Below the pieces are notes generated by a model. That model had not been told where the DNA came from and ran no database searches. It saw nothing but the letters and a program-made list of their open reading frames with translations. A stretch of 41,406 bases of DNA from a virus. Where the stretch lies: IMG/VR virus record IMGVR_UViG_3300031654_000010, positions 1 through 41,406 of that record, one strand, 5' to 3'. Position 1 is the first letter of the stretch, and each line of letters begins with the position of its first letter. The translations under genes were made by a program, and so were the position numbers. This document shows, piece by piece, positions 5,661 through 36,073 of the stretch.

Positions 5661-6872
5661 CTATTTCGGATTTTCCTTTATATGCTCAATCAGTTCGGCT
5701 AACTTCTCTTCATCCAGGTCATTATAGTCCTTGATATTCCACTTCATTGTGGCATTGCAGTATTGACCGACATCGGTTGCCGACCAGTTGCAGTCCTGCA
5801 TTGTCTCTTTCAAAGACTTGACCGAGTTTTGCAATTTAAGTTCTTTACCACTGCCGTCAGGTGGATAATCTAGCTTAGGTGGGTAGTCTTCTTTAGGCTC
5901 TGGCTTGGACTTGGCTGTAGCCTCTCGTTCCATTTGTCTGAGCTCCTCATCAGTGGCACAAGTCTCGTCCGGTGGCTCAAGTTTTTCCTCTTCTTCTTTG
6001 GCTCCCTCAATCTCTTCAGGTGTCATTCTTTCGGCAGCCTCTTCCTTTGTCAGCATCCTGTCCTTTTCATCAGCTGGCCACTGTTTGATATCACCATACA
6101 ACAATTCTGTGTCTGCCTCGACCTGTGCCATATCAGGCGGTCCCGCAATGAGTTCAAGCGGTGGCTTCCTGGCTTTTATCGCAGCCTCTATCATATTGTC
6201 ATTGCTTCGGATATTGAGGACAAAAACATTCTTCTTAGTGCCACCCGGGGGAATTACCTCCATCTTCTCAAGGGTAAGCAGAAGCGGTACAATACTCACT
6301 CGACCGTAGATTGATCTGACCAGCTTTAAGCAATTATTGATATTAGTAATACTGTTTACGCTTGATGTGTCAATCTGCCAGATACCCAGTCCGCTTATCT
6401 CTGGGAGTATAAACTGAAGGTTCATAATCTCCCGGCAGTTGCCGGATTGATAGTCGGGACATTCCCTACCCTGGCAAGCCATCTCCCGCATTTCCGTGTT
6501 CTTGGAGTCTTTTGACGGCAGGTCGCCAGTTACTTTGTCAACTAACCTCATGCAGATTTCGCCATCACCGCGACAGACCAGCCCCCGGGTCCTTGTGTAG
6601 CACCGGTAATACTGGCTGGCTATTGTCTCTTCATCCTCAAGAGGGAAGATTATCCTGAGTTCCTTTGGCTGCTCACCGAATGTCTCAATGAGCTGTTCCA
6701 GTAGTTCACCACCAGGGGCATCCGGAGCCGGGTAAACGAAGTAGTCAACAGCAGACGGATATGTGGTTATTACCTGACCTTGCTTGTTTTTCTTTTCCTT
6801 CTTTATACCCAGATGTATCTTGCCTATTCGTGGCAGGCGGTTTCTTTCAGTTAGTCCTTTGATTGGTGACAT
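5661..6872 (-). CDS. Gp3-like recombination-directionality-factor family protein
   Basis: The 403-residue protein matches the pattern of the phiC31 gp3-like (RDF-like) family. It has an N-terminal IGKIHLGIKK, YPSAVDYFV (39-46) and PKELRIIFPLEDEETIASQYY (69-89). A cysteine set follows as CYTRTRGLVCRGDGEIC (91-107) and CQGRECPDYQSGNC (133-146), likely metal-binding. The region from about 265 to 345 is low-complexity and acidic, and a small helical domain closes the protein. In phiC31, gp3 binds the serine integrase and reverses its direction. No integrase is seen in this genome, so a different DNA-metabolism role is possible. Confidence 0.65.
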   Translation of the reverse strand: MSPIKGLTERNRLPRIGKIHLGIKKEKKNKQGQVITTYPSAVDYFVYPAPDAPGGELLEQLIETFGEQPKELRIIFPLEDEETIASQYYRCYTRTRGLVCRGDGEICMRLVDKVTGDLPSKDSKNTEMREMACQGRECPDYQSGNCREIMNLQFILPEISGLGIWQIDTSSVNSITNINNCLKLVRSIYGRVSIVPLLLTLEKMEVIPPGGTKKNVFVLNIRSNDNMIEAAIKARKPPLELIAGPPDMAQVEADTELLYGDIKQWPADEKDRMLTKEEAAERMTPEEIEGAKEEEEKLEPPDETCATDEELRQMEREATAKSKPEPKEDYPPKLDYPPDGSGKELKLQNSVKSLKETMQDCNWSATDVGQYCNATMKWNIKDYNDLDEEKLAELIEHIKENPK

Positions 6873-11265: not shown

Positions 11266-12387
11266 CTAACCGTCCAGATGCCTTATAGTTCCGTCTATAT
11301 GCTCGATGCCGTCATAATGACCTTGCACTCTCTCCTTACCCCCACCACCGTTATCCCCCTCTCCCTTTCTCAAAGGGAGAGGTTTACATTCTTCCTGGTT
11401 AAAAGACTGGATGTTCTTTATCACCTGAAAGATAGCCTTATACATCGGGCAGAGATAAGTTCTTTCACGCCAGTCTTTTGTCTGGCTGGGGCAGCCACCG
11501 TAACATGCTTCCCAGAACTCACACCCTTTGCAACCTCCGTAAGCCTGTTCAACCTCTTGGAGTATCTCTCCCCTTGTCTTGTATTCTGAGGGATATCTGA
11601 CAAACATCCCCTTTGAAGATACCCTCATGCAGTTGGTTATGCTGCCATCTCCCAGAACTACCCTTGCCGAATGAGTGCAGAATATATCGCACTCTTTATA
11701 GACACAGACTACTTTTTCTGAGCCTCTCAAGCTGTCCCACATATCATAGAAAGGACTCCACCGCCAGCCGTGAGAGAAAACGAACCAGGCTAATTCCTTA
11801 TAGACTTCAATAAGCCTGCCGTTCTCAAGCGAGCATTCGCCGTCATCATAGCAGGGGTTTATCCGACCGGTAATCCTGAGATTGGAAAGCGTGGCTATGA
11901 ACTGTTTGAACTCACTGAGTAAATTGTCATTCTCGGCATTGGCTTTGCTAATCACAGCTATGAAACTGAGGTTAAGACCTCTCTGGTGCATCTCCAAGAT
12001 ACTGTTGAAAATCTTTTCGGTGGTCTTAACATCACATCTGTAGCTGTTAAGCTCTCCGAGACCGTCAAGGCTCACACCTACTGAAGTCTTATAGCGCGAG
12101 AAAATATCCATGTATTCACCGTCAATATTGAGCCCGTTTGTCTGGATGCCACTCTTACCGTTTTTCTGGTAGATAGCCGAAAGTATTGCCTCTACATCTC
12201 TTTTCGGCATCATAAGGGGTTCACCGCCGTGAAGTGCTATCTGCTCTCCGTCAGGTGCTTCATAGATAACCTTGAGGACTTTTTCAAGGTCGTATTCCAT
12301 CTTCGGGTGATTTTCTGAACGCCACTTATTTTCGTAGCAATAAGTGCAGTTCATATTGCAGGTCAGGTTCGGTTTAACTAAAAGCAT
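11266..12387 (-). CDS. Radical SAM/SPASM enzyme, probable peptide or protein maturase
   Basis: The 373-residue enzyme has the radical SAM cluster C10-x3-C14-x2-C17, the SAM-binding HGGEP (53-57), GIQTNG (80-85) and GVSLDG (104-109). A C-terminal SPASM-type cysteine set follows (C228, C233, C237, C253, C286, C289, C295, C299, C313) for extra Fe-S clusters. SPASM enzymes modify peptides and proteins: sulfatase maturases, thioether and carbon-carbon cross-linkers. The gene follows the fibre-like His/Asp-rich gene by 8 bases (AAGGAG site) and is paired with the DUF483-like gene. Its C-terminal 40 residues are odd: a palindromic-repeat-derived stretch (about 334-352), then three H-x-D-G units resembling the neighbour's motif. 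Modification of that neighbour is inferred. Confidence 0.9.
   Translation of the reverse strand: MLLVKPNLTCNMNCTYCYENKWRSENHPKMEYDLEKVLKVIYEAPDGEQIALHGGEPLMMPKRDVEAILSAIYQKNGKSGIQTNGLNIDGEYMDIFSRYKTSVGVSLDGLGELNSYRCDVKTTEKIFNSILEMHQRGLNLSFIAVISKANAENDNLLSEFKQFIATLSNLRITGRINPCYDDGECSLENGRLIEVYKELAWFVFSHGWRWSPFYDMWDSLRGSEKVVCVYKECDIFCTHSARVVLGDGSITNCMRVSSKGMFVRYPSEYKTRGEILQEVEQAYGGCKGCEFWEACYGGCPSQTKDWRERTYLCPMYKAIFQVIKNIQSFNQEECKPLPLRKGEGDNGGGGKERVQGHYDGIEHIDGTIRHLDG
11335..11395. repeat. Palindromic intergenic-type repeat inserted in the radical SAM gene
   Basis: CCTCTCCCTTT (11358-11368) and AAAGGGAGAGG (11372-11382) form a perfect 11-base hairpin with a CTC loop, flanked by a C/A-rich stretch. 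It is read in frame as CKPLPLRKGEGDNGGGGKER. The sequence type resembles palindromic repeats common between bacterial genes, and the late terminator at 9792 has a related stem. Confidence 0.65.
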
Positions 12388-16006: not shown

Positions 16007-17122
16007 TTATGGCAATGCTATACAAGGAGCTACATCATCTATCTTTTTTAGCTCTCTCAAAGCATCCTCATACTTAAGCTTTCCCCATTCATACATATAT
16101 CGGTAGGGATTGGGACCGTAGTTTATCTTGTTAATATAGCTCCTAGCCTTGCTCATTGCAGCCTTACCAGCAGCCAGGTCGGCGAATGTACCCTCATGGC
16201 TGTATGACAGGGTGCTCAATTTGAACCTGACTGTCTCATTATCAACAACAGCATCCTTTAATGGAGGCCAGAATGAAACAGGGTCGCAGGCATTACTGGC
16301 TATTGTTCTCTGGTAATCCACAATGTATATACCGCGACAATTATCAATCGTAAACTCCTGACCTTTGTAGAGTGTGCCAATTGATTGAAGGTCATCCATA
16401 GCAACACTTGTCGAACCGGCAGCATAGCCAGCTTCCAGATTTATCTTACCGAGTAGCGTAGTTAGCTGAGATAGTTTATGGCGTAGAGCAAAATAGACCC
16501 AGACCTCATCGGCAGCATCCGAATCCTTTGTATCGGGTGGTTCATCGGTTATCTTGAGGCGAATGATATTATTCTCCTGAAGTTCCCACTCACCTCTTTT
16601 AAGGAATCTCGGAGGGTCTTGTAGTATCGGGTACTCTATCTTGTCAATTTTAAGCCAGTCAAATGTTCTCCTGCCTAAAGCCCCATCCGGCTGCTGCGGG
16701 GCATCTATGCTGAACTCTTTGCTATCAGTGCAGCCCTCATTGAATATCTGGTAAGGTTCATTTCCATCGGGGAAAGCATCTTTATTGAGAGTAAGTTGTG
16801 TCTCATCAACATAGGCAGTAACCTGCGCCCATGTTCTATCCTCGGAATTGTAAACCCACTTGCCAACATCGGTTGATAGGAACTGGTCTTTAACAGTGTC
16901 AACAAGAGCAGAGGCAGTATCGGTATCGGCAGTACCAGTTCTGCTCTCAAGATTGAACTCAGCCTTATAGATGTAGGGGTGATAGGTAGAGTATTCCCTC
17001 GATGCTTCTTCAATAGCATAATCCAACTCCGTTGTAGAGAAAACAGCATTGCCGGTATCCTGGAGTTTCTGCTCGATGACATCACGCATATTTGAATAGG
17101 TCAAACCTTCTGGATAACCCAT
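16007..17122 (-). CDS. Structural protein, likely head-tail or tail-hub component (371 aa)
   Basis: The 371-residue protein begins with a helical part (YSNMRDVIEQKLQDTGNAVF, TTELDYAIEEASREYSTYHP) typical of head-completion or adaptor proteins. A beta-rich middle and a helical end follow (AAGKAAMSKARSYINKINYG). Its position between an unknown 121-residue virion gene and the tail hub fits a connector or tail role. No firm family match. Confidence 0.5.
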   Translation of the reverse strand: MGYPEGLTYSNMRDVIEQKLQDTGNAVFSTTELDYAIEEASREYSTYHPYIYKAEFNLESRTGTADTDTASALVDTVKDQFLSTDVGKWVYNSEDRTWAQVTAYVDETQLTLNKDAFPDGNEPYQIFNEGCTDSKEFSIDAPQQPDGALGRRTFDWLKIDKIEYPILQDPPRFLKRGEWELQENNIIRLKITDEPPDTKDSDAADEVWVYFALRHKLSQLTTLLGKINLEAGYAAGSTSVAMDDLQSIGTLYKGQEFTIDNCRGIYIVDYQRTIASNACDPVSFWPPLKDAVVDNETVRFKLSTLSYSHEGTFADLAAGKAAMSKARSYINKINYGPNPYRYMYEWGKLKYEDALRELKKIDDVAPCIALP

Positions 17123-22705: not shown

Positions 22706-22751
22706 TCTTTATTTTCTGGATTCTACCTACATCTAACTGGTAGGCGCAGTT

Positions 22752-24294
22752 CTAACTCGTGGGTGCCGTAGCATCAAATAACAAATATCTGCCGTATGTC
22801 CCATCCTCTTCAACCATTGCGTAGTCGTGGACTATGCCGATTTCCCAGCCTCTCAGCGAGTCATCGTAAACCACCCAGTTCTCTATCTCGTAGCCAGTGA
22901 CGTAGATGAAGGCAGCCTTTGAGTAGATTGCCCCGTAAGTGTCATCATCGGAGTCGATAGTGGCATTTGCATCCCTGAGAACTGGAACTCCGTAGAGCTT
23001 ATCAATTCCCATGAAATGCTGCCTGAGAACATTCCACTGGAATCCCTCTGGCATGGTAGCTGAACTGGCCGGAGTAGCGAGAGCATCAACCAGTGGATGC
23101 CACATATATGTATGTCCTACGGCAACCATCGGCATAGGACAGGGTTCAGCCTGACCCATACACTGAGTTACGCCAGCAGCCAGATAGCCGAGAGCGATTG
23201 AAGTATTGGCATGGCTCAAGCCGCTGTCAAGACCGGAGTATAGAGAAAGACCGTCCTGGTCAATCTTTTTCTGCATGGCATTTCCTATGACTTTGCCAGC
23301 AGCCCGGAAAGCATTTGCCTTCAGGTGGTTGCGAAGCCTCTTGGTGACGATGACCTTGCAGCCAGACTCATCGGTTGTATGGGTAGTTCCGGTGATGGTA
23401 AGTGTCTGGGAGTTTGCCATATCAACGCCATCAATCAGGTCCTCGGAAGTGACTGTCCCGAATTTTGGAATATAGATTGATTTCTCACCTTGCCCCATCT
23501 TCATCTTTGTGACTGTATTGGTGAACACGGCTTGGTGCTCGATTGTAACAGTTTTGTTACTCTTCCTTACGGAAGGGAATGGTCATTTCTGCCAGTCTCT
23601 GCATATCGCTATGCAGCTCGGACTATATCTTCTCTTAAAAGAGTTCGGCGTATAGTCTCTGAGGACTCAGCCCCGATAACCTCTTGCATTAAGTTGTTTT
23701 ATCTTAAAGATAAAATTTATTTCTTCTTCAGAATACAACCTATCAGCATTAGTTAATTTATTGATATTCCCTTTGGCATACCTGCTTTCACAGAACCTAT
23801 ACAAATATAGGGCCGCCTTCCCTTTTCTACCAGTCATATAAGGCAAAACAGCAGGTAGAATATTTAGCAGTTTCGCATGACCCAGTATGAGAATATCTTT
23901 GGCTTTGCTATGTTTCGGATTACTTCTTGGTTTTTCATGGACATGAGGGTTACCACCTATTCTTTGACATATCGAAACAGCCTTTTCAATCAACTCAAAA
24001 TCCGTATTCGTTATTGTCAATCTCGGTGATGGACTATTGTTTCTACCATTCGGGTAGCTACAAGTTATTGAACCCTCACCATCTATTAAACCCGCAAGCC
24101 AAGCCTTTTCAATTTCGGAGACTGTTGCCTGCTGGTTGTCTGCAACTTCGGATTTTTGCATATAAGCACCTCAGTATACTCAGATATTCCAGCATATAGC
24201 CGAATTTATGCACACCCTACTTAATTGAGCGTGCTTCACCAACCATAGCCACAGCGCCGGCAGCAAGGTCAGCAGCAGTTGTTGGTCCTGCCAT
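22752..24294 (-). CDS. Major capsid protein (P22-type coat), split by a group I intron
   Basis: Exon 1 is 24294-24228 (22 codons plus one base) and exon 2 is 23548-22752. Splicing at the sites set by P1 and P10 makes a Phe codon (T plus TT) and a 287-residue protein. The joint reads VGEAR-F-TIEHQAVFTNTV, followed by GEKSIYIPKFGTVTSEDLID and a C-terminal part with VAVGHTYMWHPLVDAL and YGAIYSKAAFIYVTGYEIE. This is the pattern of P22-like coat proteins as found in many phages. The scaffold-like gene lies just upstream. Exon 1 has a strong site (AAGGAGGTACAAGCAA). The GTG at 23528 is not the true start: without splicing the coat would lack its first 30 residues. The family call is from pattern. 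Confidence 0.8.
23549..24227 (-). other. Group I self-splicing intron in the capsid gene
   Basis: The 679-base intron follows a U (24228) and ends in G (23549). P1: exon GCACGCU (24234-24228) pairs with intron GGUGUGC (24216-24210), with the U-G pair at the splice site. P10: the first exon-2 bases UUAC (23548-23545) pair with intron GUAG just before that guide. P7: GACTATA (23657-23651) pairs with TATAGTC (23627-23621), the latter inside the conserved AAGATATAGTCC. P8 is CTCTT/AAGAG. P9 is CTGCATA-GCGA-TATGCAG (23616-23599), and a further CTTCC-GTAA-GGAAG hairpin lies at 23575-23562. Both loops are GNRA type. Confidence 0.9.
23667..24161 (-). CDS. LAGLIDADG homing endonuclease inside the intron
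   Basis: The 164-residue protein has one LAGLIDADG motif (WLAGLIDGEGSI, about 21-32), then LTITNTDFELIEKAVSICQR and VLPYMTGRKGKAALYLYRFC as in single-motif members that work as dimers. It starts with ATG behind GAGGTGC, inside the intron, and its stop falls just before the P7 strand, so its 3-prime end overlaps the folded core. It would cut intronless capsid genes at the insertion site and so spread the intron. Maturase help in splicing is possible but unproven. Confidence 0.9.
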   Translation of the reverse strand: MQKSEVADNQQATVSEIEKAWLAGLIDGEGSITCSYPNGRNNSPSPRLTITNTDFELIEKAVSICQRIGGNPHVHEKPRSNPKHSKAKDILILGHAKLLNILPAVLPYMTGRKGKAALYLYRFCESRYAKGNINKLTNADRLYSEEEINFIFKIKQLNARGYRG

Positions 24295-25599: not shown

Positions 25600-28500
25600 C
25601 TATTTCATAGCCTTGAGTCTCTTAGAAATCTCTTCCTTCAGCCTCTCTATCTCGGCCCTCTTTTTTGAATAATCTATTGCAAATTTCTCAGCAGTTGTCA
25701 TCCCGGCTTCCTTGTCGTACTGCTCTATTGTCTTTGACACTGCGCCGATAAGAAACAGCCAGGCATCCAACTTCGGATGGCTTCGCCTGAACTCACGCCT
25801 TGCTGCAATTTTACCCATTTCAGCAGAGCCGATGATTTGGTCATAAACCAGATACATTTTGTAGACATCTCTGGGAGGGACCTTACTGAAATCCTTTGGT
25901 TGCCATTCGCCTTTATCTACCATTTCTTTATAAAACTCAGGATGCTCCATGAGATACCAGTCATCTTCAAACCAGTATTTCTCCCATGATGGTTTGCCTT
26001 TAGCAGTGATTCCCTTATAACCGACATAATCTGGCACAAACTCTTCCTGACCTATAAAAAGTAAGTAAGCGTCCTGCTCCCATCTGGCTTTCTGAAAATC
26101 GGGATTACGTATCAGCAATCCCTCCCTTACTTCAGCCCTTCTTTCTTTATCAGAAATGTAGTTCGGCGATGTTCCCTGACCGTAAGATTCCCACTCTTCA
26201 AATAAGTCCTGAAACTCCATATAAATCTGGTCGTATCTTTTATCAGGTACTTTGGTCTGGTCAATCTCATCCCTTACGTTATCGCCCATAATTTCAGGGT
26301 CGGTTAAGATTGCATAGAGTTCCGGATTGTCAAGAAGATAATGTTCCTTGATATACCCCTTGCTTGATAGTTCATAGAAGTCCACGTATCTATCCCTAAC
26401 AGAATCGGTTTTTCTGGGAGAAGGTATATCTAAAAAATAGAAATCCCTCTGCCTTCTGGCTATACGGTAATCGGGATTATCTCTAAGGTAATTGGCTCTG
26501 GCATCGCCTTCTGCTGACAGCTCATTGTAGAATTTGTCCTGCTCTCGCCACTCGACATTGATTCTAAGAACATCCTCATTCCAGTCCTTGCCATCATCGG
26601 TGAGAATTCCATTATCCAGAGCCCACTGATGGACTTCAGGATTATCAATAAGCCAGACTTTAGCCTCTGAGCTACTACCTCCATACTCATCCACTATCCT
26701 ACCTCTCTCTACCCAAAGCTCAACCTGATTCTTAGCAGTTTGCCCACTCAACGACCTATTGAGGACATTAAGAACGTTAAAATAACCAGTTAAAGCGCTC
26801 CGAACTGCTACTGGCGATACCTCCATCTCCTCTTTAGAGGCAGTGCCCGATTCTAGTCTCCTCAGCCATGCTGTATCTGCCTTAATATTTTCTTCAATTA
26901 GAACAATAGAACTTTTAATATTCTCCTTATTTATAACGCCAGACTTTATCTCAGTCAGATTGGCAAGAATCTCATCATACCAACCCATCACTTTCTTATC
27001 CCATTCTTCGCCCCATTTTAGATTCTCGTGGGTCTTTCTTGAGCGTTGAATCTGGTCAATCGCATATTTAATCTTTACTTCTTTATACAAATCCCACTCA
27101 ATATCCGCTTGGCTCAATTCAGTAGTTAGACCATTCTCAAATGCATCAATCCTCCTCATATCATCAACCCACTGAGGGTTGTCAGCCTTTAATTTAGCCC
27201 TCTCTTCGTCTGTTTCAAGGGAATCATACTGCTCGAATAGCGGTCTGTGCTTTATTTTCAATTCCAGTGATTCTGGTGGCGTTTCTATGGGTTCTCTGCC
27301 AAGCCATTCCCTGAGTTCATTATCCTTAGACATAAGCAACTGGACTTCCCAACTGTTGTAGCCTGACTCCTCGCCTTTATCAAGGTAATCAAAGTAGTTC
27401 TTGACTGATGCTTCAGGAGGAAGTGTCATTTCAGGGACGGCATTATCTGGTATATCCAAATCATTGAGAATCCTGTTGAACTCGTTATAGGCTTCCATAG
27501 TGTAGATTTTAGCCTGTCCCCAGACAGCCAGTTGAGCATTTTCCTTCGGATGATTCCTGAGATAGTCCTGCTTGAGATTAACACCTATCTCGGATTTATG
27601 TTCCTCAAGAAATTCTGCCTGCTTTACCTCGTCAGTTATTGACCAGTATTCGTTTAGCAGGGCGAACTGTCTTTGGGTGAAGTTGCCGAGTTCCGCATCC
27701 CTGTATTTATTATCAAACTCCTTTAGAGCTTCTTCATCACCAGATTCGACAACTTTCTCCCTATCCTTCCACATCTGGTAATAGTCGGCAAAAGTAGTCC
27801 CTTTATCCGGGTCCGCATTGATGGAGGCCAGACTTTGATTCGGCAGAACTACCAAATCATCTCTGATTAACATTGCTTCAGCAATAGCTCTTATGTAAGG
27901 CGGATATCCCTTCTTTTCTGTCAGGGATTCCGGGTCAACATCTTTGAATTGCGAAGCGGTATCAGCCCAGAAGTCCGCCGTATCGTAATAAGGTTCGGTA
28001 ATACCATAAGCAAGATTATCAGTGTATTTAGGTATTCCGAGTTTATCGAAGTTTTCCTCCCAATCTCCGGTGTATGTCTGAACGCCCTCGCCATACCATC
28101 CAAGAGGAGTTGCTATCGCTGCACCCTTCCATCCTTCGCCTTCAAAGGCTTCCCAGACATCTTGAATCATAAAAGGCAAAACTCTATCAAGCCACTGTCT
28201 CGCATTAGTAACTTCAACAACTTCTCCTAAAAAGTTTCGACCAGTCCAGAAATCAATTAATGTGCTGAATAAAGGAGATAATGAACCTCTTGTAAAAGTT
28301 TCCTGTGCCCTTATTGGGTCAACATCGTATTCCGCCCCAGTTACAGAAGATATACCAGTACCATTACAAAGGCGGGCATATAGAACGACAAACTGTCGGT
28401 ATCCAGCCCAGGGGTCAATTCTAATCTTACCAATACGGGCACTCATAAACTCAGCATTGCGTGGGTCTGTCTCTAAGTCCCAAAGACCAAGCCAAGCACC

Positions 28501-31500
28501 GAGGAACATTATCCCGCCAATCTCAGCATTTATGAGTAGAAAGTCCTTCCATGCTTCTTTCATTACTCTGGGATTAAAACCAATCTTACCTTCACGAACA
28601 TGGATTCCAAGTAGATGTTTCGGCAAAAGAAATCTACCTAATTTAGACCTCATAGCAAAGAATATGGCATTCATAGCTGGTGCTAATCCTGAGAACTGTT
28701 TTAGGTTTGCCCTCTGAATAAAATCACCAAGCATGGATTGGTGGTCAGTCATCTCCTGAATAATATCAAATGCTTCACCTTCCTTGAGCTTTATCTCTCC
28801 AGAGGCTATCTTTTCAGCCCTACGCAGGGTCTCCGCATACTTGATATCAAGAACTCCAGCAACAATCTCATTCGTACCAGAAACAAATGCTCTTTCAAAT
28901 GGTTTAATATGCCACAACTTAGAGGTTATTCTCGGAATAAGTCTCTCGACTGTAGGGAAACCAAACTCCTCAGCACCTCTCCATTGCTCTGTTCCCTTTT
29001 CCATTTCCCAGCTAGGTACTCTTAGCGGGTCATGTCCAGTTTCAATTCTAATCTGCTCGTATATTGGAAACCATGGTCTCCTTTTTATCCGTTCCCTAGC
29101 TGCCTCAGCATCCTTCTGACTAAACATAGTCTGATAGGAAACAACTTGCCCTTTCCATGCCACAAAAGGATGACCAGCAGATAATACTTTAGATTGCCTC
29201 AAGAAAGAGTTATCCAGCGTTGCTTTAGTGGCTCTAAGAAAGTTACCAATATCTATTGGAGACCAAAGAATTTCCTTAAATATCCTGTTCAACATTCTTT
29301 GTTCCATAAAGTTGAACATTGGCGGTTTCTTAAAAGCATCAGAAATAGGTTTATCGAATCTTGTAGGAGGTACAGGCGGATACGCATCATCTCTGGCTTT
29401 CATCCGCTCTAACTGGTATTCATCAAATGTTAGTTCGCCTTTAGAAAACCTCTCGCCTAGTTCAAGTTCGGCTTTAGCAAACTGCAAATCGGCAGGATTT
29501 CTCAAATCAGTAACTTGTGGATTATTAAATTCTGGCTCAAGTAATGTTTTATAGCCTTGTGGGATGTCAGACAACTTTCTGAGATAATCTGCCGTTTCCT
29601 GGTCTATCGGTATCGGCTCCCTGCCTATCTCATGGTACAGACCTTCAACCACATCTTCCAAAGGCTTTTTCTCGGTAGCAATTTTATCTATGGCCTTGAG
29701 AACCTTCGGCTGGTCGCCGAAAACCCTCTGTAATCTGGTATAAGCAGACCTGCCAGTTACTCCGGGTTCTCTCGGTATAGTTCTACCAGTCAGAGCATTT
29801 GTCAGAGCCGTTACAGTCGAAGCCATCTCAAACGGTTCGTTCTTTGTTACATGGTAGACTTTAGCGAATAGCGCATCTCTTAAATCATTCGTCATACCCT
29901 CAAAATACTCAGTTGCAGCAGCAGGCAGTTCACCGGCAAGCGTATCGCTTATTGCCTGCTTCATTGCCTCTTCAGAATTTAATCCTTTGGTTACTATAAG
30001 CTCCTGCGCTCTTGACTTCAGATTTTCCGCCCTTCCAGCCCTTGTCTCTCGCCTTAATTCCCTTGTCAGTTCCCAAGCCCTGACTGTAGTAGGCTCATTG
30101 ATATAGTCAGCGAAGAATCCCACCAAAGCATTTATCTGCTTCATGTTATATTTTGGCTGTCCGGTAATAGCCTGGTTTTCAGCTACTTCCTGGCTTGATA
30201 ATTCAGTCTGCGGTTCTAATGGTTTCTCAGTAAAATGTCTTTTAATATCAGATTGAAGTTCGTTTATTTTCCTCTTTTCCTGCCTGATATCCATAACCCT
30301 ATCGGCAATCTCGTCAGGAGTCATATTAAAACGCTTTGTCAAATCGTCAAGAGCAACATCTCTTGGCACTCTGTTATACTGCGGAGTTCCCTTCTGAGTA
30401 TATTCGCTGAAATCATGTCCGGGGAATAAAGACTGAGCCTGTTTGAAAGTGAAGTATTCAGGGAATGTCTGTTCTCTGATGGAGATAAAAGCATCCAGCC
30501 CGACATTCTTACCGCCAAGTTTGAACTTTGCTTGAGCTACTGGGTCGGTCTTTTGAGTAACTTTCAATCCCTCAAGTTCAGCCTGCGCTTCGTAAGCCTC
30601 TTTAGCTTCTGCAGGTGCTTCTTCGGCAGACTGTCTAGCCTGCTGAAGTTTAAGCTGGTCTTCCATTGAAATCTGGACTATCTTACCCTTGCCAGCAGGT
30701 CTCACTTCCTTCTCGGTTACGCCTTCAATCATGGCAGGCTGATAGCCAGCTTCAGGATATCCAGCTTCGGCTTTGGGAGTAGGCGTTTTTAATTCGGTTA
30801 TTTCATTTGCTAGAGACGCTATTTCATCTTGGACAGCAGCTATCTCTTTATTAACTTTAGTTCTTTCAGCCCCTTTGAGTCCCTCAGCTTTACTAAAGAG
30901 GTCGGTTTGCTTTATTTTTAATTCTTTTATCTCTTGCTGTAAGACATCAACCCTATCAAATCTTTCCTTTACAGACATTCCAGTTGTTACTTCAGTTACA
31001 GCTTCAGGCATACCAGCTTCAGCTTTGGGGATTGCTGGAGATAGCTTAAATTCAGACTCATATGTTCTGGCATACTTAATAGCTTCTTCCATAGTATTTC
31101 TGGTGCCAGCTAGTTTACCATCTGGTCTATATACATCAAACTGACCTGATATCTCCTGAACTTTATATCCTTCTGGAATTTTCAGTTCTTCAGGTTTTTC
31201 CCCTAGTATTTCAAAAGCACCCCGTTCAGGTCTGACTCTGGCTTCCTCGATAGCTTCACTGATTTTCGTTTCTACATCTGCGCGGATTGAAGGTTTAATA
31301 CTTATGCCAGCACCAGTTAGACCAGGAAGGAGATTTGCAATGGCAGTCTTAACCGCAATGTCAGGCAGGTTTGCCAAGATGTCTCTATTCTCATCGTAGA
31401 CTTTCACCGCAGCGTTAGCCACGACTTCCTGCATTACTTCGGTCGCTGTCTCTGAAAACTCACTGATAGTAAAGTTCCTGCCGAACTTTTTTATAACTTC

Positions 31501-32796
31501 AAACAAAGTCCGCTTTACAAGCTGCTTTGATGCTTCCTGCTTAAATTTTCTGAAAAGCACAGGACTAGCCATTTTAAGCAATGGTATTCTACCGGCACTT
31601 TCAAGAAGCCCTATGATAGTACCTGCAAAAAGAGCAAGATATCGAGCTTTGTCTTTAGGAGCACCGGCAGCTATCAGGTCTTCATATACCTGCATTCCTT
31701 CTACGGGACCCATGATAGCCGTACTTCCGACTATAAAAGCACCCCCTGTCCCCCCTGTCAGAAGTGAAACACCAGCTATAGTAACTATAAACGGAATAAT
31801 GTTAGCCAGCTCATAGGCGTAATATCTTGGGTCTTTCAACAATTCAGGATGCTGGAAAGCACCTTCCTGGAATTTAATATCGGGTACTATCTGGGGATTA
31901 GCCTTAATCCATTCCCCTAACTCTTCCTTGTTTTCTGTATAAAGCCAGTGCATATCCTCCCGAGCTTGCCTGTTCTGCTCATTTATCGTCTCGCCGAACT
32001 CACCTAAAAATCCTTCAGGCAATTCCGGGTAAAGCATCGGTATTAAAACTTCCAGAACGAAGTTCTCTCCCGATTCCCACATAGTCCTCGATGTAAAGAC
32101 CACAGTATCCCAGAAGTCCTTGAATATGTTTTCCTCTGGCGTAACTTCAATCTGTTTCGTGACCTGATTATAAAAGCCAACCCTATCACCTTTATCGTCA
32201 TAAGCGATATTAGTGCTTGCGTCAAGGAAGCAGAGTTTTCTTACAGGAACTCCGTCCTCAATGACCGTTACGGTTGATATAGGAGTCTCAACAGGTGGCA
32301 ATTCTGCAAATACGAGGTCAATATCTCTTTCGTTCTCAAGCAGAAATCTAAGGACATTTTCGGTATCCTCATTCCTTCCCATTGCCTTGATATCCTCAAA
32401 GAAATCTTCTGGATGCTCAAGAGCGAAAGTATGTAAAGTTTCAGCAACCATCTGCGGTATTTCCAACTCTGAATAACCGTAACTGGCTTCAGGTCTGAAC
32501 ATCTCGGGGTAAAGTGTTTTTAGAGACTCCGATACTGGAACAGGCAACTCAAAAGGCTTTTCAGGCTCCTCTTCTTCGGGAACAGGAATCTCACCGTATC
32601 CGGTAATCCCAGGCACAACTGGTTCTAAAAGGAAGTCCTCACCTTCCGTAGTTTCAAAGCCAAGCTCTTTAGCCTGATAAGGTTTTAGCCATAGAGGTCT
32701 TGTTAGCTTTTTCTCGGCAAGCGTTCCCTCAGCCTTATAGCGTTTTAGTAGATTAAATTGAGTTTCGCTTATATATTCTCTAGTCTCTGAAACCAT
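25600..32796 (-). CDS. Giant virion/polyvalent-type protein (2,398 aa)
   Basis: This protein takes 17% of the genome. An acidic N-terminal part leads to hydrophobic segments at about 335-370 and 395-405 (IIPFIVTIAGVSLLTGGTGG), which could insert in a membrane. The middle (about 590-900) has coiled coils. A region at about 1150-1560 resembles the alpha-helical parts of large polyvalent or internal virion proteins, with another hydrophobic stretch (EIGGIMFLGAWLGLWDL). From about 1750 to 2345 there are at least eight degenerate repeats with NP or HP turns (for example DNPEVHQWAL, DNPDYRIARR, RNPDFQKARW). Its place right after the portal suggests it is packed in the head and injected with the DNA. 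No enzyme motif was found by eye. Confidence 0.7.
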   Translation of the reverse strand: MVSETREYISETQFNLLKRYKAEGTLAEKKLTRPLWLKPYQAKELGFETTEGEDFLLEPVVPGITGYGEIPVPEEEEPEKPFELPVPVSESLKTLYPEMFRPEASYGYSELEIPQMVAETLHTFALEHPEDFFEDIKAMGRNEDTENVLRFLLENERDIDLVFAELPPVETPISTVTVIEDGVPVRKLCFLDASTNIAYDDKGDRVGFYNQVTKQIEVTPEENIFKDFWDTVVFTSRTMWESGENFVLEVLIPMLYPELPEGFLGEFGETINEQNRQAREDMHWLYTENKEELGEWIKANPQIVPDIKFQEGAFQHPELLKDPRYYAYELANIIPFIVTIAGVSLLTGGTGGAFIVGSTAIMGPVEGMQVYEDLIAAGAPKDKARYLALFAGTIIGLLESAGRIPLLKMASPVLFRKFKQEASKQLVKRTLFEVIKKFGRNFTISEFSETATEVMQEVVANAAVKVYDENRDILANLPDIAVKTAIANLLPGLTGAGISIKPSIRADVETKISEAIEEARVRPERGAFEILGEKPEELKIPEGYKVQEISGQFDVYRPDGKLAGTRNTMEEAIKYARTYESEFKLSPAIPKAEAGMPEAVTEVTTGMSVKERFDRVDVLQQEIKELKIKQTDLFSKAEGLKGAERTKVNKEIAAVQDEIASLANEITELKTPTPKAEAGYPEAGYQPAMIEGVTEKEVRPAGKGKIVQISMEDQLKLQQARQSAEEAPAEAKEAYEAQAELEGLKVTQKTDPVAQAKFKLGGKNVGLDAFISIREQTFPEYFTFKQAQSLFPGHDFSEYTQKGTPQYNRVPRDVALDDLTKRFNMTPDEIADRVMDIRQEKRKINELQSDIKRHFTEKPLEPQTELSSQEVAENQAITGQPKYNMKQINALVGFFADYINEPTTVRAWELTRELRRETRAGRAENLKSRAQELIVTKGLNSEEAMKQAISDTLAGELPAAATEYFEGMTNDLRDALFAKVYHVTKNEPFEMASTVTALTNALTGRTIPREPGVTGRSAYTRLQRVFGDQPKVLKAIDKIATEKKPLEDVVEGLYHEIGREPIPIDQETADYLRKLSDIPQGYKTLLEPEFNNPQVTDLRNPADLQFAKAELELGERFSKGELTFDEYQLERMKARDDAYPPVPPTRFDKPISDAFKKPPMFNFMEQRMLNRIFKEILWSPIDIGNFLRATKATLDNSFLRQSKVLSAGHPFVAWKGQVVSYQTMFSQKDAEAARERIKRRPWFPIYEQIRIETGHDPLRVPSWEMEKGTEQWRGAEEFGFPTVERLIPRITSKLWHIKPFERAFVSGTNEIVAGVLDIKYAETLRRAEKIASGEIKLKEGEAFDIIQEMTDHQSMLGDFIQRANLKQFSGLAPAMNAIFFAMRSKLGRFLLPKHLLGIHVREGKIGFNPRVMKEAWKDFLLINAEIGGIMFLGAWLGLWDLETDPRNAEFMSARIGKIRIDPWAGYRQFVVLYARLCNGTGISSVTGAEYDVDPIRAQETFTRGSLSPLFSTLIDFWTGRNFLGEVVEVTNARQWLDRVLPFMIQDVWEAFEGEGWKGAAIATPLGWYGEGVQTYTGDWEENFDKLGIPKYTDNLAYGITEPYYDTADFWADTASQFKDVDPESLTEKKGYPPYIRAIAEAMLIRDDLVVLPNQSLASINADPDKGTTFADYYQMWKDREKVVESGDEEALKEFDNKYRDAELGNFTQRQFALLNEYWSITDEVKQAEFLEEHKSEIGVNLKQDYLRNHPKENAQLAVWGQAKIYTMEAYNEFNRILNDLDIPDNAVPEMTLPPEASVKNYFDYLDKGEESGYNSWEVQLLMSKDNELREWLGREPIETPPESLELKIKHRPLFEQYDSLETDEERAKLKADNPQWVDDMRRIDAFENGLTTELSQADIEWDLYKEVKIKYAIDQIQRSRKTHENLKWGEEWDKKVMGWYDEILANLTEIKSGVINKENIKSSIVLIEENIKADTAWLRRLESGTASKEEMEVSPVAVRSALTGYFNVLNVLNRSLSGQTAKNQVELWVERGRIVDEYGGSSSEAKVWLIDNPEVHQWALDNGILTDDGKDWNEDVLRINVEWREQDKFYNELSAEGDARANYLRDNPDYRIARRQRDFYFLDIPSPRKTDSVRDRYVDFYELSSKGYIKEHYLLDNPELYAILTDPEIMGDNVRDEIDQTKVPDKRYDQIYMEFQDLFEEWESYGQGTSPNYISDKERRAEVREGLLIRNPDFQKARWEQDAYLLFIGQEEFVPDYVGYKGITAKGKPSWEKYWFEDDWYLMEHPEFYKEMVDKGEWQPKDFSKVPPRDVYKMYLVYDQIIGSAEMGKIAARREFRRSHPKLDAWLFLIGAVSKTIEQYDKEAGMTTAEKFAIDYSKKRAEIERLKEEISKRLKAMK

Positions 32797-32954: not shown

Positions 32955-34733
32955 CTATACCTCCTCTTCCATTTCGCCGGCTCCAGGCGGTTCTTGTTTC
33001 CTGGTTGTTCTGACCGCCCCTTCAACCGGTGCGCCCTGACCTATCATTAAGGCATCGGCTTTCTGCTCCGGTGATGCTTCGGGAATTTCAACGCCACTCA
33101 ATCTGGCTACTTCTCTCTTTGCTGTTCCTTCAAGAGTCTGACCGACCTCAATCAGAAGAATCTTGGCTTCGTCTTTCCTGCCCTGTTTATCAAGAGCCTC
33201 AGCCTGCTGGAAAAGTGCCAGCGCCCTGCTGACTTTCTGAGCCGTCTGAATAAGGTACTTCTCATCAATGTCGTCATAGTCCCGATATCTCAGAATGTTC
33301 TTTCTGATAGACCTGTCATCCATCCATCTCTGAGCCATATTAGCCAAGCCGTAAGCTGCTGCCGTTTCCTCCGGCAGAGCTGTGAGATATTCAAAGTCCA
33401 TCGTATAATCGCCGGCCAAATCCTCCGCCGTATAAGTCCTCTTCTTGCCAGTCCTGCCAATGTCAGCAGTCATATTGAATGTCTCAAACTGCCAACGAGC
33501 TTCCTTGAAGCACATCCGCTTGAACCTCTCCATAGTCTTTATCCTTGGAGTAAACACCTGTCTGGATGCACCGGCCAGAGTAGCGATAGCTACCTGTGAT
33601 AGCTGGAACTGCAGGTTTCCCCAGTCTATATGGCTTATTGAACCTCGCTGAATAGCACCGCCCAGCATAGCCTGGAAGAATCTGGTTGAAGACTGAATAT
33701 CGGGACCCTCTATCTTCTGCAATCCTTCCTCAGTTTCAATAGCAAGAATACGACCCAGCCTGTAAAGCGGCTCGTCAGGAAGTTTCTTGCCCGATTTGCT
33801 TTTAAGAACCTGCGGCGGAGCCAGCGAAAGCATATTCATTGTCTCAAGTATGGAAGCTATACGGTTGGTTTCAGGGTACAATTCCCTGTTTGCCGAGAAT
33901 ATCGAGTCTCCCCTCATTCTCCTTGCTCTGTCTGAGGTGTCCAAAAATGTTCCCTGCTGGCATAACTGAATTACAAAAGGTGGGTGAAGCAATTTATTGG
34001 GAATCGAATCATAGTATTTACCGTCAAGGAATATGGTTTCATTAAAGCCGTCCCAAGAATCCCATCGTGTTATAGAATCTCCGATAGGCACATAGTCCGG
34101 GTATTCCTCCTTGCACATCGCTTTATCCAGAGTATCCCAGAAAGCTACTTTTGAAAGACCTCTTGAACCCACGCTGTAAATGCACTTCCGCATATCAATC
34201 GGAACTATATCAACATCGAAGCCGAATTTATCCTGTGATAAGAGAATCCTCGCTCCGACCCTGCCTCTGATTGCGATTTGCTCCCAGAGGTATGTATCTA
34301 AATCAGGCATAAGAACCTGGTTGAGATTTTCATTTGCAATATAAATCAGGTCTGTCCACCAGTCCTCGATAACCTTAGTCTCATGGCCGTCAAGCTCTCT
34401 GCCGTTTCGCTGACCGTTAATCTCTATAAGCTCTTCGGATTCATTAAGGACAGCCAGCACCCTTTCGCCGAATACCCGGGCATCGTTCATTGTTACGCTG
34501 ATAACGTCATCCAGTTCTTCTCCCTTAGCGTCCCTGAGAATATATGGGTCTTGAACCCACAGCTTCTCGTCCTCATCCATGCGCTGAAATATATGCTTGC
34601 CCCACTCAGCATTGACGGAGTTTATCCATTGCATAGTCTCATCATCAGATACAAGGGAAACAGGCATCTGAGCCGTTAAAGAAGTTGATTGCGGAACTGC
34701 TTTACTTCCTTTGAGGTCTTTGATTTTCGTCAT
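32955..34733 (-). CDS. Portal protein
   Basis: The 592-residue protein follows TerL with a one-base overlap, the usual portal position. The clip/wing-like parts include IAIRGRVGARILLSQDKFGF and ITRWDSWDGFNETIFLDGKY. A long helical stem is seen around LYPETNRIASILETMNMLSL and ATLAGASRQVFTPRIKTMER, followed by a charged helical C-terminus. Twelve copies would form the DNA channel at one capsid vertex. The length is in the range of podovirus and siphovirus portals. Assignment is by place and general pattern, with no single decisive motif. Confidence 0.75.
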   Translation of the reverse strand: MTKIKDLKGSKAVPQSTSLTAQMPVSLVSDDETMQWINSVNAEWGKHIFQRMDEDEKLWVQDPYILRDAKGEELDDVISVTMNDARVFGERVLAVLNESEELIEINGQRNGRELDGHETKVIEDWWTDLIYIANENLNQVLMPDLDTYLWEQIAIRGRVGARILLSQDKFGFDVDIVPIDMRKCIYSVGSRGLSKVAFWDTLDKAMCKEEYPDYVPIGDSITRWDSWDGFNETIFLDGKYYDSIPNKLLHPPFVIQLCQQGTFLDTSDRARRMRGDSIFSANRELYPETNRIASILETMNMLSLAPPQVLKSKSGKKLPDEPLYRLGRILAIETEEGLQKIEGPDIQSSTRFFQAMLGGAIQRGSISHIDWGNLQFQLSQVAIATLAGASRQVFTPRIKTMERFKRMCFKEARWQFETFNMTADIGRTGKKRTYTAEDLAGDYTMDFEYLTALPEETAAAYGLANMAQRWMDDRSIRKNILRYRDYDDIDEKYLIQTAQKVSRALALFQQAEALDKQGRKDEAKILLIEVGQTLEGTAKREVARLSGVEIPEASPEQKADALMIGQGAPVEGAVRTTRKQEPPGAGEMEEEV

Positions 34734-36073
34734 TAAACCCTCCTGCCCACGGGAGCCTTTTCGGTATCTCCTGGCACTGCCGATATCGGCCTGAACTGTG
34801 TCATCATATATCTCTCGGCCGCCATGAAATGAAATATCTGCTCGTCCTCAATCTTGTTCTCGATCGGATTGTAGTTTGTATCCAGCTCCCTTGAGAAAGT
34901 CTGCTTCTCCGATATATAGTTCTGGCAAGTCCTGAAGACCTTATGCCTGTGCAACTTCTCAAATCCGTAGACCCTATTTATTTGCGACCAGACATCTCTA
35001 TCAAGCGGTTTATCAATCCTCCACCCAGCCTGTGTAAAGTCTCCTCGCCAGCCATCTTCTGTTGGCGAACCGCCCATCCTGGAGGCAATCCTTTCGCCTT
35101 TAGAAAGTTCAATCCAGTTTGTCACATGCTCGAAGGTAGAAAGCTGCCCCATTGCGTAATCGCGGTAAGTATAGAAAGTCCCCGTACTCGGGTCGTAAGC
35201 TCTCCATAGAGCCACAGTATTAACCGGCCCGAAGTCATGTCCAACGTATCTCGGCCACCCCGTGGGGATTTCAAAAGGTTCGATAACATCATTCACGGAA
35301 TCAAAAGCGTCATAAATCAGACCGGCTGGCTTGGAGAAACGCCCTCTGTGGAACATATCGAACTTCCACGCCGGCATGAGTTTCTGCATCCTCTGATATT
35401 CATCAAGAGGAAATGCCGGGTTAGCCGTAGAGTCGAACTGGATTACATCAATATCGCCATTCGGGTTTTTAACCCACTCGTCATAGATATCGGTCTTGAG
35501 CCAGCCAAGTCCGTAGAGCGTTGTCGTCATCAGAATGCGAGCCTTATTTATCAATGTCCTGCGCCTTACGGCTTCCCAGGTCTCTCTCTTAAACTGTTTC
35601 TGACCGCACTCATCCAGCCAAACGCCCTTGACGGTAGCTGACTCCATAGACTCGGGGTTCTGAGCCGAACCGATAAAGACCTTGGTATCTATATCCGAAT
35701 CGGGAAACATCACATAGTCGTTCTTTTTCCTTACAGTCTTCTTGGTAAAGAAGGTAAATATCTTCTTGTTGTCGTTATAAGTCCCATAGTGAAACAAGTC
35801 CTGAAATACATATAGAAATTCAGGCAGTAGCTTCCTATCGAGCAGAGGGAAAGTCGAAGTCCCGACCAGGTAATCTCCCGGCCCCCTTGTCCTTATCTCC
35901 CTATCAAGCCAGTGAGGTCCGAGTACGGTCTTACCGCCCTGACTACCCGCTTGCATATCTATTATCCGCTTCTTTGAAAGCCATGTCCTAGTCTGACCCG
36001 GGTGGAAATTAACCTTCAACTTACCGTCAGAGCTTATCTCACGGAAATGCTTTATCTCAGTCGCTTGAACCAT
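34733..36073 (-). CDS. terL: Terminase large subunit
   Basis: The 446-residue protein has the ATPase Walker A AGSQGGKT (42-49), Walker B GVWLDE (150-155) and the following coupling region (ILMTTTLYGLGWLK). The nuclease domain begins with YVGHDFGPVNTVALW (276-290, D280 as first metal ligand). It pumps DNA into the prohead and cuts it. It starts inside the preceding gene (22-base overlap) with AAGGTTG in front and is followed by the portal (TAATG). Key residues of both active sites appear present. Confidence 0.95.
   Translation of the reverse strand: MVQATEIKHFREISSDGKLKVNFHPGQTRTWLSKKRIIDMQAGSQGGKTVLGPHWLDREIRTRGPGDYLVGTSTFPLLDRKLLPEFLYVFQDLFHYGTYNDNKKIFTFFTKKTVRKKNDYVMFPDSDIDTKVFIGSAQNPESMESATVKGVWLDECGQKQFKRETWEAVRRRTLINKARILMTTTLYGLGWLKTDIYDEWVKNPNGDIDVIQFDSTANPAFPLDEYQRMQKLMPAWKFDMFHRGRFSKPAGLIYDAFDSVNDVIEPFEIPTGWPRYVGHDFGPVNTVALWRAYDPSTGTFYTYRDYAMGQLSTFEHVTNWIELSKGERIASRMGGSPTEDGWRGDFTQAGWRIDKPLDRDVWSQINRVYGFEKLHRHKVFRTCQNYISEKQTFSRELDTNYNPIENKIEDEQIFHFMAAERYMMTQFRPISAVPGDTEKAPVGRRV

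Follow-up and report, generated by a model that had tools for sequence, protein, structure and literature searches.

In phages, the usual targets of introns are genes for DNA polymerase, ribonucleotide reductase and terminase, and the endonucleases that accompany them are mostly HNH, GIY-YIG and related enzymes (PMC3984707). An intron of about 0.8 kb has also been described in the major capsid gene of the mycobacteriophage LittleE; its authors considered it most likely to be a group I intron and demonstrated its splicing by RT-PCR and N-terminal sequencing, and they cite a capsid intron in the lactococcal phage Tuc2009 (PMC3706429). Here we analyze a 41,406-nucleotide stretch of viral DNA, the IMG/VR record IMGVR_UViG_3300031654_000010, which we call the window. 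Its major capsid gene is almost certainly interrupted at codon 23 by a mobile group I intron whose P6 loop carries a LAGLIDADG gene (Table 1). This reading draws on the sequence, its homologies, a structure backed by covariation and an empty allele that matches, and from these we infer splicing, the use of guanosine, DNA cleavage and homing.

Read without splicing from 24294 to 22752, the capsid ORF that begins at ATG 24294 stops after 25 codons at a UAG (24219-24217), and a second open frame resumes upstream of a GTG at 23528 and ends at 22752. The program-made ORF list starts the coat at this GTG, which is the mistake that an earlier note on this DNA, made from the letters alone, had expected of simple annotation. 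Removal of the 679 nucleotides from 24227 to 23549 on the minus strand joins 24228 to 23548 in one frame, with a phenylalanine at codon 23 (T^TT), and gives a capsid protein of 287 amino acids that contains ...VGEARFTIEHQAVFTNTV....

The evidence that decides the matter is a naturally empty site, from which the junction can be placed to the exact nucleotide. The IMG/VR phage contig L012, whose capsid is 82% identical to that of the window, has the same gene without an intron (GGTTGGTGAAGCACGATTTACAATAGAGCAT) and reads GAAGCACGAT/TTACAATAGAG with no insertion, where the spliced window reads GAAGCACGCT/TTACAATCGAG. The two sequences agree through T 24228, apart from a single silent difference two bases short of the junction, and agree again from T 23548 onward; since the adjoining intron base differs on either side, no other placement of the boundary is possible. 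The splice sites that the note had read from P1 and P10, and the phenylalanine codon that it had restored by joining them, are thereby confirmed, and exact removal of the intron restores a known intronless gene. The junction protein EAR-F-TIEHQAVFTNTV is exactly that of L012 (identical across E-A-R-F-T-I-E-H), as the note had anticipated for relatives, and the alignment score to L012 is 994.6 for the spliced window and 854.3 for the unspliced one. Taken alone, the complementarity in P1 is weak, with such a helix arising in about 6% of composition shuffles.

The identity of the interrupted gene comes mainly through its relatives. The capsid of L012 is homologous to the annotated major capsid protein of phage DSL-LC06 (E = 4e-12) and matches the annotated capsids of the cultured Pelagibacter phages HTVC111P and HTVC112P, and these phages share its scaffold–capsid gene order. 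These capsids align without gaps through the splice junction, so none of these relatives has a coat that begins near GTG 23528. Searched directly against phage records, the window capsid had no match, whereas intronless L012 as the query did; a search of bacterial and archaeal genomes for the capsid found none. In Pfam, the capsid of the sister contig L001 matches PF25209 (Phage_capsid_4; 30 bits, cut-off 27), that of the window stays below the cut-off at 21 bits, and that of L012 had no match. The note's suggestion of a P22-type coat found no support, as neither Pfam nor PHROG gave a match to such a family and the curated match is PF25209. We attribute to chance a match between the capsid profile and a periplasmic binding protein in the PDB (E = 0.014), and the predicted structure of the capsid was unusable (pLDDT 27). 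At the 3' end of the capsid gene (22735-22775, minus strand), the last codons, ACGGCACCCACGAGTTAG, are repeated immediately downstream in diverged form, AACTGCGCCTACCAGTTAG. This second version resembles the 3' end of intronless L012 more closely, and the arrangement suggests a gene end that was replaced or duplicated. Elsewhere the window has a 2398-aa ORF (25600-32796) that had no match in Pfam, with the scaffold region on one side and the large ORFs at 32955-36073 on the other, as well as a radical SAM protein (11266-12387) and a Gp3-like recombination directionality factor protein (5661-6872).

Table 1. Features of the interrupted capsid gene and of the compared region in L101. Positions are those of the window unless another contig is named.
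Feature	Position	Strand	Remarks
Exon 1, major capsid gene	24228..24294	minus	22 codons + 1 nt; ATG at 24294; Shine-Dalgarno AAGGAGGT upstream; contiguous in L012
Group I intron	23549..24227	minus	679 nt; terminal G at 23549
GUAG (P10)	24217..24220	minus	pairs with 3' exon UUAC 23548-23545; includes in-frame UAG 24219-24217
Internal guide sequence GGUGUGC	24210..24216	minus	P1 with GCACGCU 24234-24228; 7 bp, U.G at the cut
P3 5' strand UUCGGC	24199..24204	minus	pairs with GCCGAA 23649-23644; compensatory changes in relatives
P4	24131..24193	minus	GCUGG 24193-24189 / CCAGC 24135-24131, enclosing P5; holds endonuclease Shine-Dalgarno and start codon
P5	within P4	minus	UCUG 24184-24181 / CAGA 24142-24139
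LAGLIDADG homing endonuclease	23667..24161	minus	164 aa, single motif, in P6 loop
Catalytic 3' core	23621..23660	minus	P7 5' strand, P3 3' strand, P8 hairpin, P7 3' strand
P7	23657-23651 / 23627-23621	minus	GACUAUA / UAUAGUC
P8	23643-23632	minus	
P9 hairpin	23599..23616	minus	7 bp, GCGA tetraloop
P9.1 hairpin	23577..23597	minus	GACUGG/CCAUUC; imperfect, one C.U mismatch; perfect in L001
P9.2 hairpin	23562..23575	minus	5 bp, GUAA tetraloop
Exon 2, major capsid gene	22752..23548	minus	spliced product 287 aa
L101 intron region	L101 1-608	minus	compared with L001 3123-3774

The intron has the structural hallmarks of group I. P1, P10, P7, P8 and both GNRA-looped hairpins, all pointed out in the earlier note, were recovered at the same places on the minus strand, and beyond these we found P3, P4, P5, P6 and an imperfect P9.1. 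A U.G wobble in P1 lies at the 5' splice site, the last intron nucleotide is a G, and the P3–P7–P8 core and P9 have covariation support. A covariance model of the 3' core finds window positions 23660-23575 at 87.8 bits (E = 2.8e-17), and it also finds the related introns of L001 and L101, but not intronless L012. The model was trained on 15 unrelated phage introns found by one 18-base motif, with the window, L001 and L101 left out; because the window also has this motif, part of the 87.8-bit score is built in, but the covarying helices are not. Counted as cells across introns, pairing holds in 54 of 54 for P3, 35 of 35 for P8, 25 of 25 for P9.2 and 29 of 30 for P9.1 (L032 and L068, in which the automated P3/P4 search was spurious, are excluded), and when strands are swapped between introns the paired fractions fall to 0.75, 0.48, 0.42 and 0.50, respectively. 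P3, for example, is UUCGGC/GCCGAA in the window, UCUAGC/GCUAGA in L001 and L101, ACUGGC/GCCAGU in L083 and UUCCAC/GUGGAA in L066, and P8, P9.1 and P9.2 covary in the same way. The covarying helices, the covariance model and the empty site together bear out the note's claim of a group I intron in the capsid gene.

In the search that the note had proposed, with the group I model, Rfam RF00028 reached only 27.5 bits (E = 8.9e-5 on a 1-kb stretch) against a gathering threshold of 50, and nothing in the window matched Rfam at that threshold. Weak Rfam matches in the window to SNORD19B, mir-31 and U6 (E = 1.7-9) are due to chance. Relatives that share this 3' core but lack an ORF pass RF00028 at 84-87 bits, and it is likely that the endonuclease gene in P6 breaks the alignment, so that Rfam misses the window intron. 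The RF00028 threshold belongs to the library and does not define group I introns biologically.

The ORF in the P6 loop encodes a LAGLIDADG endonuclease, as proposed in the note. It matches Pfam LAGLIDADG_3 above the curated cut-off (26.3 bits), its nearest relative by sequence is I-MsoI, and its predicted fold (mean pLDDT 81) has its best PDB matches in I-MsoI, I-CreI and I-CvuI, which are homing endonucleases of algal organelle group I introns. It has a LAGLIDADG motif with the acidic residue (AWLAGLIDGEGSI) and the alpha-beta-beta-alpha-beta-beta-alpha fold; with only one motif, it is expected to act as a homodimer. Its start codon and its own Shine-Dalgarno sequence sit between the two strands of P4, and two bases separate its stop codon, UGA, from the 3' strand of P6. 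The eleven N-terminal residues, which are the disordered part of the model, overlap the 3' strand of P5/P4, so ribosomes making the endonuclease and the folding ribozyme would have to compete for the same RNA. A search of IMG/VR for the endonuclease with back-translated peptides yielded no confirmed match.

A related intron of 652 nt is present in the same capsid gene of contig L001 (3123-3774), at a junction two codons, or 6 nt, downstream of the window site (T^AT; AUAUACCU with GGGUAUGU). It has a terminal G, a UAG directly at its 5' splice site and a P1 of 8 bp, and the window and L001 introns each have their own matching guide sequence. It is unlikely that the 6-nt difference is an artefact of wrongly chosen splice sites in L001. 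L001 has no exact empty allele and its protein around the site differs (YTYEH versus FTIEH), but among the gap-free registers, read by eye from about 8 nt upstream to 5 nt downstream, the chosen one is the only one with both a U at the exon end and a G at the intron end, and it gives the 8-bp P1 and keeps the conserved threonine. A second contig, L006, is 99.7% identical to L001 upstream; its IMG/VR record (G003) also contains a second LAGLIDADG-like gene (16561-16692). L101, of the same phage type as L001, is 97.3% identical to it upstream and has its intron at the identical site with the same first 26 intron bases, yet the L101 and L001 endonucleases are only 50% identical. The interior was thus exchanged after L001 and L101 parted, and the histories of site and interior are distinct. 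In rDNA, endonuclease genes are described as moving from one intron to another at a neighbouring site (PMC1299323). The L001 and window endonucleases are 55% identical, and those of the window, L001 and L101 form a group apart, the others that we found being at most 36% identical over most of their length.

If the intron works as its structure suggests, the capsid pre-mRNA would fold into P1–P9, and an exogenous guanosine held in P7 would attack after the U of the U.G pair in P1. Exon 1, once released, would then attack after the terminal G 23549, with P10 as a guide, joining 24228 to 23548 and yielding the mRNA for the 287-aa capsid protein. On unspliced mRNA, ribosomes translating the capsid would stop at UAG 24219-24217 and so halt before the ribozyme core, and the endonuclease would be translated from its own Shine-Dalgarno sequence inside P5. 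Where a relative whose capsid gene lacks the intron co-infects the cell, the endonuclease is expected to cleave that gene at the junction, for which L012 provides the target sequence, and repair would copy the intron in.

The C.U mismatch in P9.1 might point instead to a degenerate intron that no longer splices, with only the ORF from GTG 23528, or nothing, being made. This is very improbable: the core helices are all intact, as are the U.G in P1, the terminal G, P10 and the endonuclease; exon 1 is conserved and has a Shine-Dalgarno sequence, but GTG 23528 has none and falls within sequence that is contiguous in all relatives; and, the capsid being essential, an intron that had lost splicing would kill the phage. 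We give almost no credence to the idea that there is no RNA element here and that a free-standing homing endonuclease, with its intact ORF and own Shine-Dalgarno sequence, lies between two separately translated capsid pieces, because a covarying group I core flanks the ORF on both sides, the insertion is exact and frame-restoring relative to L012, and the split falls inside an N-terminal arm that is in one piece in relatives.

Introns with the same 3' core as this mobile group I intron tend to be found beside capsid genes. The motif GATATAGTCCRARCTGCA occurs in 104 IMG/VR stretches, most of which have further intron signals. When the ORFs on the 3' side of the non-redundant cases were compared to PHROGs, 19 of them, together with the window-type capsid, were major head proteins of several families; the other assigned ORFs were one DNA polymerase and one helicase, and the remainder were unassigned or endonucleases. 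Thus in about 20 of the 22 functionally assignable cases the intron flanks a major capsid gene, a count in which some capsid families recur and in which a position inside the gene was checked by eye for a few cases. This capsid preference is a strong lead rather than a measured rate. At a capsid gene, two Rfam-positive group I introns lie no more than a few hundred bases apart (L008 1308-1892 and L028 7812-8375). We tentatively suggest, as a possibility that we consider less probable than its negation, that these introns are a phage lineage specialized on major capsid genes, which moves by steps of a few nucleotides and in which the interior, made up of core and endonuclease, recombines independently of the 5' address formed by P1 and the guide. 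If true, this would account for related introns 6 nt apart in one capsid gene (the window and L001) and for identical addresses with different endonucleases (L001 and L101).

The locus corrects the annotation of an essential structural gene, for which Rfam reports nothing and ORF callers begin the coat at GTG 23528, depriving it of 29 residues at the N-terminus, and it adds a LAGLIDADG case in phages. The empty site, the filled site, the filled site 6 nt away and the same site with an exchanged endonuclease form a small natural series, so that a single gene offers a means of testing both intron homing and the shift of site.

Compared with known systems, the window intron shares with RF00028 the P3–P9 core, the P7/P3/P8 order, the P9 hairpins and the terminal G, but has its P6 filled by an endonuclease gene. 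Like I-MsoI, I-CreI and I-CvuI, its endonuclease has one LAGLIDADG motif per chain, is expected to be a homodimer and has the same predicted fold (TM about 0.65); unlike them, it has N-terminal residues that overlap the ribozyme core, and its identity to them is about 20%. T4, SPO1, Bastillevirinae and Jug phages also have group I introns that lie in essential genes and encode endonucleases in their loops (PMC11878797, PMC12363816), and the window differs from the usual phage introns in its capsid gene target and its LAGLIDADG endonuclease. LittleE, whose host is Mycobacterium, is a close precedent: the combination of a capsid-gene intron with a LAGLIDADG endonuclease related to I-CreI is already known from that phage (PMC3706429), the likeness of the capsids being by description. 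In LittleE the endonuclease is encoded on the opposite strand; in the window its gene runs in the sense direction and overlaps with the P4/P5 core. Beyond the capsid intron itself, the analysis adds the sister site 6 nt away, the exchanged interior and the capsid-flanking pattern.
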